A DNA stretch of 26,591 nucleotides from a virus. The stretch is taken from IMG/VR virus record IMGVR_UViG_3300027734_000272, positions 1 to 26,591 of that record; one strand, given 5' to 3'. The notes under the pieces are model-generated. The model made no database searches and had not been told where the DNA came from. It saw only the letters and a program-made list of their open reading frames with translations. Made by a program: the position numbers and the translations under genes. Of this stretch, positions 14,661 to 18,254 are shown piece after piece (within the stretch, counting starts at the first letter, position 1; each line of letters opens with the position of its first letter).

Positions 14661-14893
14661 AAACTGAAGAACACGTCGTTCTAACCGGGTTTGCTGAACC
14701 GGATACGCGGGTCACCATGTCAATAAAAACCCGTGATGGTGAAATTAAATTCATTGCTGGAGAGAACTTTTGTTACGGTCTGACTAGCCCTATAAAAAGT
14801 GGCGGTGGAATCACCATGGGCGACGCGAATAGGCAGTGGCTGCACGAGCACTTGGACAAATGGATAGACGACAACATTGAAAGAACCAAATGA
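14657..14893 (+). CDS. 78-aa hypothetical protein
   Basis: The product has a beta-like N-terminal half (HVVLTGFAEPDTRVTMSIKT), a Gly-rich middle (KSGGGITMG) and a helical acidic end (HEHLDKWIDDNIERTK). I do not recognise the family. Both ends are ATGA overlaps. Confidence 0.7.
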   Translation: MKTEEHVVLTGFAEPDTRVTMSIKTRDGEIKFIAGENFCYGLTSPIKSGGGITMGDANRQWLHEHLDKWIDDNIERTK

Positions 14894-15120
14894 GCACCGA
14901 ACTGAAATCAGGGATAGAGCAGGCCGTGGCGGCCGCAGGGTCGCAGGCCAAGCTGGCAGACATGCTGGGCTGCACGCAGCAGAACGTATCGTTCTGGGTG
15001 CGCCAAGGCTACGTGCCCGTGGAACGCATCCGGGAGATCGAGCAGGCCACCGGCGTGCATCGGTCTATACTGATCGACCCGGAGTTAATAGACCTGCTGT
15101 CACCGACAGCGGACCTATAA
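14890..15120 (+). CDS. Second Cro/YdaS-like helix-turn-helix regulator (76 aa)
   Basis: The protein has a Cro/YdaS-type helix-turn-helix at about residues 15-45: SQAKLADMLGCTQQNVSFWV, then RQGYVPVERIREIEQATGV. The following HRSILIDPELIDLL is the usual C-terminal arm. It is the last gene of the ATGA chain and lies just before the primase. Its 3' end contains the dyad GCTGTCACCGACAGC and a TATAAT, so it may repress the primase promoter and itself; this is inference. It is distinct in sequence from the YdaS-like gene at 5115. Confidence 0.85.
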   Translation: MSTELKSGIEQAVAAAGSQAKLADMLGCTQQNVSFWVRQGYVPVERIREIEQATGVHRSILIDPELIDLLSPTADL

Positions 15121-15223: not shown

Positions 15224-17278
15224 ATGACACAGACAACACCAGACCTGCCACCAATCGGGCAGGTATTCAAGCCGCAGCACATCCCGCAGCAGCTCAAAAA
15301 CATGCGACGCTGGGCCCCGTGGAAGGCCGTGTGGAACGAGACCCGGCAGAAGTACGACAAGATCCCCTACCACCCTGACCACTACGGCCTGAGCACCAAG
15401 GACGTCAAGCGCTGGGTTGACTTCGACACCGCCAACAGCTCCCAGCGGCTCAACCCCAACAAGTACAAAGGCGTGGGCTTCGTGCTCACCGACATCACCG
15501 ACGTGGTGGGCATCGACCTAGACAACTGCGTCAAGGACGGCGTCATCGCCCCGTGGGCCTTGGAGATCATCGACGCCGTGAGCAGCTACACCGAGCGCAG
15601 CCCCAGCGGCAACGGCATACGCATACTGGCTACCGGCACCTTCCACACCGACTGGAACAACCACGACGTGGGCATCGAGGTCTACGCGGGCCACGCGCCG
15701 CGCTTCCTGACCATCACGGGCGACGCGGTGGGGCTCCCCGTGGGCTACCCGCTGTACGAGGCCCCGGCCGAGGTCCTGAGCACCCTGCACAGCCGCTACG
15801 GCCGTGGCCGGGCCACCGCCAACGTGATCCCCATCCAGATGCCCGAGCTGATCCCGTACGTCTTGCTGCCCGACGTCGAGGACATGGACATACCCGATGC
15901 CACCAAGGACATCCTGCTGCACGGACCCGACGAGACCGACGACCGTTCACTGGCCCTGCACCGCACCGGTGTGCAGCTCTACAGCGCGGGCTACAGCGAC
16001 GCCGAGGTCCTGTCCATACTGGCTAACAGCCAGCCCCTGTTCGACGTGGCTTTGTCCCACCGACGCATGGACGACGAGCGCGCCCTGCAGTACCTATGGG
16101 TCGAGCACTGCCAGAAGGCCAAGCCCAAGGCCGTCACCAAGGACTCGGTGATGGCCGACTTCCAAGACCTGAGCGCCGACCCGGAGGTGGCCGCCCAGAC
16201 AAAAAAGTCCGAGGAGGCTAAAGCCAAGGCCGAAGACCGCTTCAAACTGGAGACGGCAGTCGAGTTTGCCCAGCGCCGCAAGGCGTCGTGGATCGTCAAG
16301 GGCGTGGTGCCCATGGCCACGCTGGGCGTCATCTACGGGGCGTCAGGCTCGGGCAAGTCGTTTTGGCTTTTTGACCTGATGGCCGCCGTGGCCCGCGCGC
16401 AGGCCGTGAAGGACACCGCCAACGCCGTGCAGGCCCTGTGGCGTGGCAAGAAGATAAACCCTGCCCGCGTGTGCTGGATCGCTGCTGAGGGCGTGGAGGA
16501 CATGCGCAAGCGCGTCTTGGGCTACTGCACCCACCAAGGCATACCGCTGGCCAGCCTGCCCATGGAGTTCATCGGCGAGGCACCCAACTTCATGGAGGTT
16601 GTGGACGTCAAGGCCGTGATCAAACAGATACGCGCCCGGGGCAAGTTCGACGTGATCGTGATTGACACGCTGGCACAGGTCATGGCGGGCGGAAATGAAA
16701 ACTCAGGCGAAGACATGGGACAGGTGCTGGCCTACTGCCGCGAGATCACCCGGCTCACCGGGGCGATGGTCGTGTTGGTCCACCACAGCGGCAAGGACGA
16801 ATCCCGGGGAGCCCGGGGATGGTCGGGCCTTCGCGCCGCAGCCGACTTTGAGATGGAGATCATCCGCTCGGACAACGACCGCGTGGCCACGGTCACCAAG
16901 ATGAAGGGCGGGGAAGACGGCGGCGAGTACGGCTTCAAGCTGGAGACCGTCACGGTCGGCATGGACGACGACGGCGACGTGGAGACGACCTGCGTGGTGG
17001 TCTACACCGACAGCAGCCGGGCCTCTGTGGCCGTCACCAAGGGGCCGAGCGGGGCGAAGCACAAGCTGATCCTCAAGGAGGCCACGCGGCTCATCGAGCT
17101 GGCCGGGTCCGGCGTCACCTTCAGCGAGATCGTCGAGGTGGTCTGGCCGAAGTACCCACGGAACGACGAGAGCAAGCGCGACCAGCGCAAAAACAACGCC
17201 GGACGTGATTTGCGGGACGTCATTGCGGCTGGGCATCTGGCCCAAAACGACGATGGCGTGGTCAGCTTTCCAGAGTAA
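15224..17278 (+). CDS. Primase-helicase: AEP primase plus RepA-type AAA ATPase
   Basis: The 684-aa protein joins two enzymes. Residues about 20-190 are an archaeo-eukaryotic-type primase/polymerase: Asp98 and Asp100 in VVGIDLD, SPSGNG (126-131) where the usual His is replaced by Arg133, and Glu152 in GIEVY. Residues about 345-560 are a RecA/RepA-like ATPase: Walker A GASGSGKS (372-379), Walker B VIVIDT with Asp481, and the VLVHHSGK sensor (517-524). Residues about 613-684 form a winged-helix-like domain repeated in the next gene. It should unwind and prime phage DNA. A TTG at 15212 is an alternative start. Confidence 0.9.
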   Translation: MTQTTPDLPPIGQVFKPQHIPQQLKNMRRWAPWKAVWNETRQKYDKIPYHPDHYGLSTKDVKRWVDFDTANSSQRLNPNKYKGVGFVLTDITDVVGIDLDNCVKDGVIAPWALEIIDAVSSYTERSPSGNGIRILATGTFHTDWNNHDVGIEVYAGHAPRFLTITGDAVGLPVGYPLYEAPAEVLSTLHSRYGRGRATANVIPIQMPELIPYVLLPDVEDMDIPDATKDILLHGPDETDDRSLALHRTGVQLYSAGYSDAEVLSILANSQPLFDVALSHRRMDDERALQYLWVEHCQKAKPKAVTKDSVMADFQDLSADPEVAAQTKKSEEAKAKAEDRFKLETAVEFAQRRKASWIVKGVVPMATLGVIYGASGSGKSFWLFDLMAAVARAQAVKDTANAVQALWRGKKINPARVCWIAAEGVEDMRKRVLGYCTHQGIPLASLPMEFIGEAPNFMEVVDVKAVIKQIRARGKFDVIVIDTLAQVMAGGNENSGEDMGQVLAYCREITRLTGAMVVLVHHSGKDESRGARGWSGLRAAADFEMEIIRSDNDRVATVTKMKGGEDGGEYGFKLETVTVGMDDDGDVETTCVVVYTDSSRASVAVTKGPSGAKHKLILKEATRLIELAGSGVTFSEIVEVVWPKYPRNDESKRDQRKNNAGRDLRDVIAAGHLAQNDDGVVSFPE

Positions 17279-17293
17279 CCAAAGGAGAAACCT

Positions 17294-17686
17294 ATGTCAG
17301 AAACCAAGTACGAAGTCCTAGCGCGCATGGAAGCCGCCATCGCCACGATGCTTGCCATGCGTGATCTGTACTTCAGCACGTTGCCCCAAGAATTTCAAAT
17401 AGCGCGCGACGAGCCGCCTACCCCAACGCCCCTCGTAACGCGAAGCACGCTTCGTCAAAGGATGATTGTTAACACGGTGTCTAACCTTCAAGAGTTGTCG
17501 GGAGTGAACCCCACCTTTGAAGAAGTTCTCGACGCGGTTTGGCCACAGTACCCCCCGACCTTAGAAGGTAGGCGCGATATGCGCAAAGTCAACGCTAGGC
17601 GCGACCTGCGGGACGTTATTGCGGCCGGTTATTTGATAAAAAACAAGGACGATGAGGTCAGTTTGCCGGGCGTGTGCTACTTGTAG
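17294..17686 (+). CDS. Stand-alone copy of the primase C-terminal winged-helix domain
   Basis: The 130-aa protein starts after AAGGAG, 15 bases beyond the primase stop. Residues about 1-30 are a helix (EAAIATMLAMRDLYF) and 31-55 a Pro-rich linker. Residues about 60-125 clearly match the last 70 residues of the primase-helicase: both share VWPxYP, then RD-x-RK-x-NA, RDLRDVIAAG and a VS-x-P ending. The wing domain is therefore duplicated as a separate protein. Beside the repeat region at 17713-17820, a role as an origin-binding or loading factor is plausible inference. No known family name is claimed. Confidence 0.8.
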   Translation: MSETKYEVLARMEAAIATMLAMRDLYFSTLPQEFQIARDEPPTPTPLVTRSTLRQRMIVNTVSNLQELSGVNPTFEEVLDAVWPQYPPTLEGRRDMRKVNARRDLRDVIAAGYLIKNKDDEVSLPGVCYL

Positions 17687-17712: not shown

Positions 17713-17820
17713 TTGCTTCATTGCTTCAAGATTGCTTCAGAAGCCTTCAGAAGCAGGGCATATTGCTTCATTCGCTTCACCCCCCTTTAGGGGTGAAGCA
17801 TGAAGCAGAAGCCTGAAGCC
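17713..17820. repeat. Iteron-like repeats and hairpin: candidate replication origin
   Basis: TTGCTTCA occurs at 17713-17720, 17721-17728, 17732-17739 and 17763-17770, with TCGCTTCA at 17772-17779. The inverse TGAAGC occurs at 17794, 17801 and 17814. Further GCCTTCA/GAAGC variants fill the space. It lies directly after the primase and winged-helix genes and is followed by AT-rich DNA (17821-17880), the usual layout of a theta or iteron origin. No gene covers it. Confidence 0.6.
17764..17807. other. Long near-perfect hairpin within the repeat region
   Basis: The inner stem pairs GCTTCACCCC (17774-17783) with GGGGTGAAGC (17790-17799), 10 perfect base pairs around a 6-base loop. The outer stem pairs TGCTTCAT (17764-17771) with ATGAAGCA (17800-17807). 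Only two unpaired bases interrupt the total of 18 base pairs. No T-run follows, so it is not a typical intrinsic terminator. Confidence 0.75.
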
Positions 17821-17864
17821 AATTTGGTAATTATTTACAAAAACTATCGTGGTGAGATTTACAA

Positions 17865-17963
17865 TAGAAATATTTTACAAACAAACGCTTGTAACATCCA
17901 AAAAGCGGGTACACTTCAGGCATCGCAACAACGCGATGACACACAAACACACAGGAGTTAAAA
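17865..17963 (+). promoter_or_regulatory. Expression module A: promoter, 5' hairpin and leader
   Basis: TAGAAATATTTT (17865-17876) lies 45 bases before a -10-like TACACT (17910-17915). Then come the hairpin CATCGC/GCGATG with a 6-base loop (17921-17938), an ACACAAACACAC stretch and AGGAGT before the ATG. Every element recurs at the same spacing in module B (20164-20263). A start site seven bases after the -10 would put the hairpin at the mRNA 5' end. TTACAA/TTGTAA (17875-17894) is a further dyad. Confidence 0.65.
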
Positions 17964-18254
17964 ATGGCAAAAGCAGCAAAGTTGGTGGTGGAGTTGAACG
18001 AAGGCAGCGTGGACCGTCTGGGCATGTTGCTGGCACAGATCGCTGATCTGACCAAAGAAGCCGACGCGATCAAGGACGCGATCAAGTTGTCCGGCCTGTC
18101 GCATGAAGGCTCGTTCTTCAAGGCCACGCTGACCAAAGACGTCGACAAGAAAATCTTCGACAAGGAATTCTTCGTCCAGCAGCACGGTGAGGTCGCGTAC
18201 GACGCCTACACCAAGAACATCCAAATCACTTCCGTCAAAGTCACTTCCCGTTAA
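17964..18254 (+). CDS. 96-aa protein, payload of expression module A
   Basis: The protein MAKAAKLVVELNEGSVDRLG starts with a basic strand. It then has a helix typical of a coiled coil (IADLTKEADAIKDAIKLSGL) and a beta-like C-terminal half (EGSFFKATLTKDVDKK, ending ITSVKVTSR). The layout resembles small conserved phage proteins with an EADxIKD helix followed by an FKATL-type strand, function unassigned. The promoter and leader module, the strong ribosome site and the 3' hairpin suggest high expression. It is unrelated to the 79-aa protein of module B although their starts share the same ten bases. Confidence 0.8.
   Translation: MAKAAKLVVELNEGSVDRLGMLLAQIADLTKEADAIKDAIKLSGLSHEGSFFKATLTKDVDKKIFDKEFFVQQHGEVAYDAYTKNIQITSVKVTSR

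Follow-up and report, generated by a model that had tools for sequence, protein, structure and literature searches.

Initiators that read iterons downstream of their own gene are already known. In RSF1010, a separate iteron-binding protein, RepC, acts beside RepA. The helicase of the P4 alpha protein is of the SF3 type, and to our knowledge there is no stand-alone copy of the alpha winged-helix domain. As summarized in PMC4234260, which cites Yeo et al. 2002 for the domain arrangement, P4 alpha has in one protein a primase, which is of the bacterial type (Toprim), a helicase, and a C-terminal winged helix that binds origin repeats. In SaPI/PICI Rep and SCCmec Cch2, the C-terminal domain of the initiator helicase binds iterons just downstream of the gene (PMC7581432, PMC6092414). 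In the case of PLE RepA, the DNA-binding domain covaries and swaps with the origin, and a phage nuclease, Odn, reuses the origin-binding domain of the satellite initiator (PMC8263062). The pIGRK protein RepR', a shorter form of the initiator, is a negative regulator of replication (PMC6854812). For the iteron-related domain of geminivirus Rep, an unrelated rolling-circle protein of plant viruses, residues recognizing virus-specific iterons have been inferred comparatively, as presented in PMC2974675 and PMC12548392.

The DNA investigated here (the window) is a stretch of 26,591 nt from the virus record IMGVR_UViG_3300027734_000272. It encodes a primase-helicase of 684 aa (15224..17278; it, the solo gene described below, the domains and motifs of both proteins, and the slot between primase and array are given on the forward strand), in which profile and structure searches identified an N-terminal NrS-1-type primase-polymerase domain (6a9w, 2.5e-29; 7rr4, 1.3e-13), a RecA-fold helicase core of the RSF1010 RepA type (AAA_25, 1.4e-30; 1nlf, 2.7e-11), and a C-terminal winged helix. 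The 6a9w match to NrS-1 comes from the PDB profile search, which also returned 7ola (3.6e-38) and RepA (1.2e-9), while AAA_25 is a Pfam match and 7rr4 and 1nlf are Foldseek matches. The locus resembles P4 alpha in that a winged helix is modelled at the C-terminus and covaries with an array of repeats, which it is predicted to bind; it is different in having an NrS-1-type primase and an RSF1010 RepA/AAA_25 helicase rather than Toprim and SF3. The array is directly downstream of the primase-helicase gene, as the iterons are for SaPI/PICI Rep and SCCmec Cch2, but the helicase belongs to another family, a palindrome with iteron arms lies at the centre of the array, and in some phages there is a separate copy of the reading domain. 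The iterons of SaPI/PICI-type replicons flank an AT-rich region; here the two arms of the array are on either side of a G/C-rich palindrome, and the AT-rich part is on one side only. Upstream of the primase-helicase, a small HTH protein (14890-15120) is phage-repressor-like (phrog_35, E 2.4e-9). Beyond the array, the gene at 17964-18254 has a weak PADLOC match to an oligonucleotide cyclase (E 1.4e-4), probably by chance, and no Pfam or PHROG family.

The separate copy, referred to here as the solo protein, is encoded by an ORF of 130 aa (17294..17686), with its ATG at 17294, 15 nt beyond the primase stop codon (TAA, 17276-17278), and an AAGGAG-type ribosome site at approximately 17281-17287. 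The sequence-only reading had proposed that this is a stand-alone duplicate of the primase winged helix, similar over about 65 residues, and both its coordinates and the similarity hold. The match is in fact longer: solo residues 51-125 align without gaps to primase residues 609-683, a total of 75 residues with a BLOSUM62 score of 188, where 1000 shuffles gave a mean of 32, a standard deviation of 4.8, and a maximum of 55. In a search of the window's own record, this pair had 49 % identity (E 2.6e-20) and there was no third copy of the domain. The motifs VWPKYP/VWPQYP (the VWPxYP of the earlier reading) and RDLRDVIAAG are present in both, and the likeness extends to the DNA, of which about 156 nt can be aligned (score 54, shuffle maximum 16). 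The paralogy is therefore established by computation. No match to the solo protein was found in annotated phage records, and no family for it in Pfam, PHROGs, NCBIfam, or PADLOC.

The fold of the two domains is the same. An AlphaFold2 model of the solo protein, built from 38 sequences, has a mean pLDDT of 90.1, rising to about 96-98 in the winged-helix part, where a three-helix core, with the recognition helix third, is followed by a beta wing. Its elements are helices at 5-28, 32-39, 53-69, 75-85, and 97-111 and a strand at 121-123; in the model of the whole primase, those of the tail (residues 609-683, 17048..17272) are helices at 611-627, 633-643, and 655-668 and a strand at 679-681. The shared elements coincide at a constant offset of exactly 558 residues in two separately built models, which are not fully independent, as the alignment for the solo model included tails. 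The solved structures closest to the solo protein are winged helices, MukF (Z 8.8) and MecI (Z 8.3), and Foldseek matched LexA and DtxR, none with E < 0.001; ordinary winged helices are numerous among the fold matches. The P4 origin-binding domain is not among the fold matches listed, which is uninformative either way. Before the winged helix there is just a helix of approximately 24 residues (residues 5-28, 17306..17377) and a short helix. The first of these is present only in the solo proteins of the window's lineage, has no relatives in Pfam, PHROGs, NCBIfam, or PADLOC, and is a possible oligomerization element. Searches of the same four collections found no nuclease or other effector domain in the solo protein.

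The iteron region that had been reported to adjoin the solo gene is also present. Eight exact GCTTCA/TGAAGC units at 17715..17819, five on the forward strand (17715, 17723, 17734, 17765, and 17774) and three on the reverse (17794, 17801, and 17814), make up the densest 6-mer cluster in the window, and no second iteron-like cluster was found. Within the array is a central G/C-rich inverted repeat, GCTTCACCCC..GGGGTGAAGC (17774..17799), with an iteron at the start of each of its two arms; the arms change along with the iteron in many relatives. No intrinsic terminator was called at this palindrome. To one side is a stretch of 27 % GC (17825..17905), a possible unwinding element. Close relatives share this plan 3′ of the primase, with short repeats, a palindrome whose arms start with the repeat, and inverted repeats. 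A repeat array follows the primase in nearly all relatives, its unit varying by phage (TGCTTCA, TGCTTCC, TGCACCA, TGCAACA, TGCCACA, TGGATCA, and others). It is likely that the array, the central palindrome, and the flanking AT-rich stretch are the origin.

Evidence for what reads the array comes from covariation. Without reference to the protein, the array units were set in the 7-mer frame TGCNNCA, and arrays fitting this frame poorly were excluded from the statistics; several of those excluded are consistent by eye and are uncounted. Counting offsets from the Asp of the RDxR motif in the tail, mutual information links +1 and +4 to iteron base 4, +3 to base 3, and +5 to base 5. The links of +1 and +4 with base 4 and of +5 with base 5 were above all 300 shuffles at every clustering level, and that of +3 with base 3 was reached by at most two of the 300. 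In the window, the corresponding motif is D653-Q654-R655-K656-N657-N658 (17180..17197), in which Q654 would be the base-4 reader and N658 the base-5 reader. Residue X of RD-X-R falls into classes by base 4, with Q or N accompanying T (9), T, A, L, or M accompanying A (12), and R or K accompanying C (6), against four exceptions: two TGGA units in which R/K accompanies A, one case of T with T, which is a register tie, and one of Y with T. The TGGATCA and TGGAACA units of L029 and L145 pair with K/R despite the A at base 4, and the rule differs when base 3 is G. C at base 5 goes with H five residues after the Asp. Textbook contacts are Gln with A, Arg with G, and methyl with T; the classes would fit these on the other strand. 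A residue-base rule for a phage winged helix of this type was not found in the open-access literature.

Module linkage alone is disfavoured as the cause of this covariation, both by distant primases and by a comparison of phage pairs whose primase bodies are less than 55 % identical. The +1 class is shared in 92 % of such pairs with the same iteron core and 5 % with different cores, while flanking tail identity is 33-35 % and 29-31 %, respectively; outside the reading residues the tails thus gain little in similarity, and linkage is an unlikely cause of the pattern. Base 4 has changed 15 times over the helicase tree. Among supported independent pairs, T with Q/N has seven for, none against, and one with no difference (sign test, p 0.016); for A and C the informative pairs are all in the same direction, too few for significance. 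The rule was recorded before 80 new loci were fetched. Base 4 was predicted in 42 out of 45, a weak result as nearly all are T with A, and each of the three misses resembles a register tie between the strands. Base 5 was predicted in 15 out of 16, and across the TGCA arrays of the new loci 13 had both H and C, none had H without C, none had C without H, and 32 had neither (p 1.4e-11). The base-5 test on the tree has nine changes each, with four pairs on supported branches only (p 0.125). Relatives L064, L065, L152, L185, and L219 are without the RDxR motif, and some of these have clear arrays with very different units; there may be other reading modes among them. The tail is likely to be the origin-reading domain, because the residues of its reading helix covary with the iterons and the base-5 rule holds on new loci, and from this we infer that it binds them physically.

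Natural swaps of this module are also seen. Over approximately primase residues 1-360, phage L015 and the window are 90-100 % identical, and the product of the next gene agrees in 92 out of 96 residues, whereas L015 has a tail of 36 % identity and GCTTCC iterons, so that tail and iterons differ together. In L029, the tail and iterons are those of L051 and the body is nearer to L018. L048 and L052, and likewise L027 and L043, have near-identical helicases with different iterons and readers.

The pairing of a solo protein with the primase was sought in 66 viral loci from a primase search, with 60 bacterial loci and more viral ones added from alignment searches. It was found in the window, which has two identical contigs (L001/L002), and in four further phages (L003, L004, L034, and L052), making five distinct phages in two lineages, all of GCTTCA type. 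The suggested pairing is therefore real, but it is not general, most relatives having no solo gene. Neither of the two outcomes named as refuting the sequence-only reading, a structural mismatch or a pairing confined to this phage, was observed. No further solo proteins were found in an additional alignment search or among 80 more distant loci, and one candidate from the solo search, L073, proved to be a portal-like protein and hence a false positive. Many of the added bacterial loci are in Burkholderiales-like genomes; relatives are present in those of Janthinobacterium (L074), Limnohabitans (L076), and Aquariibacter (L075), which suggests Burkholderiales hosts for the phage group.

In all carriers the order is primase, solo, array. 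Comparison of relatives shows that this interval (17279..17686 in the window) is a variable slot, empty in most and otherwise occupied by a solo gene or another small gene. In L030, L021, and L041 it is filled by a paralogue of the post-array gene (17964-18254 in the window), and the slot seems to accept copies of neighbour genes. In four out of five (the window, L003, L004, and L052), the solo gene is in the primase frame, 1-5 codons past the primase stop, and readthrough would produce a fusion. Window-type solo proteins form one clade (support 100/99) inside the primase tails of their own lineage, and in that lineage the solo protein is therefore a duplicate of the tail. The L034 and L052 solo proteins stand apart from this clade; a single origin of all five is neither rejected (p 0.28) nor demonstrated. 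Solo proteins evolve faster than primases, with dN/dS of 0.34-0.70 and 0.13-0.29, respectively, yet the values are below 1, consistent with moderate purifying selection.

The putative reading face has changed only in part. In the window it is D95-M96-R97-K98-V99-N100 (17576..17593), and all five solo proteins share R94, D95, R97, K98, N100, and A101, which make up the face that goes with GC.TC units. Residue 96, at the base-4 reader position, is M in the window, L003, and L052, Q in L004, and R in L034, while the primase tails of these phages have Gln there; the reader differs from that of the primase in four of the five. The DNA specificity that the two domains had been supposed to share is thus supported by the core of the reading helix and not by the base-4 reader. 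The affinity or preference of the solo protein may differ from that of the tail. It should be considered a predicted iteron binder, perhaps with altered preference, and we infer that it too contacts the iterons physically.

The explanation favoured here, with roughly an even chance of being correct, is that the solo protein is a duplicated reading domain acting on the same array, which limits or times initiation in relation to a self-initiating primase-helicase. The primase-helicase would be a replication protein that initiates for itself, its C-terminal winged helix reading the iterons directly 3′ of its own gene. The solo protein, as a copy of the reading domain with a helical N-terminal piece and neither primase nor helicase, would sit on those iterons, and with the needed sites occupied initiation would be limited or timed. 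For a protein that lacks a catalytic domain and has gained an N-terminal helix, array occupancy against the primase-helicase would be the simplest role. Points against this explanation are the changed base-4 reader, the fast evolution of the solo proteins, and their rarity, which shows that most relatives can do without the function. That the effect would be negative rather than positive is suggested by analogy with pIGRK, where a short initiator form acts as antagonist; whereas RepR' is made from an internal start codon, the solo protein is encoded by a duplicated gene that stands apart and supplies an N-terminus of its own. Competition with the helicase's own tail, as put forward in the sequence-only reading, is on these grounds plausible, whereas the loader role is unsupported. 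A positive, RepC-like factor, which would bind the iterons in order to recruit or load the primase-helicase, is considered unlikely. The RSF1010 RepA type of the helicase, the position of the gene directly 3′ of the primase and in the same frame in four out of five, and the free N-terminal helix would suit such a factor, but the primase already has its own reader. RepC is required for replication, and the absence of the solo protein from most relatives that share this primase and array argues against it being required here.

It is less probable again that the solo protein has been re-specified, reading the iterons of a rival phage or an operator elsewhere and so causing interference or gene control, with Odn as the model (PMC8263062). 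The Met or Arg now at the base-4 reader in four of the five, the fast evolution, and the fact that it is these very iterons in which related phages differ are compatible with this; however, K and N matching the GC.TC core are invariant, and neither the window nor those related loci that were tested contain clusters of GCATC, GCCTC, or GCGTC, tried as a separate target. In PLE, as here, the reading domain of the initiator swaps with the origin and a second protein reuses it, although PLE has a RepA_N domain and iterons of about 30 bp, and Odn has a nuclease where the solo protein has no recognizable effector. A slim chance is given to the more elaborate idea that phages twice split off the reading domain and changed its base-4 reader, which would provide a diffusible discriminator between own and rival origins, deciding which co-infecting relative replicates. 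No greater chance is given to the idea that recombination at the 3′ end of the primase gene produced the solo protein incidentally, in that the primase acquired a new tail and the old one stayed behind, functioning little if at all. The last 20 or so codons of the L004 solo gene are almost identical in DNA to the end of the primase gene in L012, which has no solo gene, a sign of recombination between solo and tail; primases without a solo gene finish in the same flank, and the dN/dS is high. On the other hand, it is below 1, the L034 and L052 solo proteins are closer to each other (pN 0.16) than are their primase tails (pN 0.30), the gene has its own ribosome site and a new N-terminus, and the same slot holds two solo families.

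For this group of phages, a residue-to-base rule for the winged helix, roughly colinear, is proposed from about a hundred phages and prophages, and the part of it for base 5 held when tested on new data. The rule explains the replication-module swaps between near-identical phages. If it holds, the origin would be predictable from the protein sequence, and vice versa.
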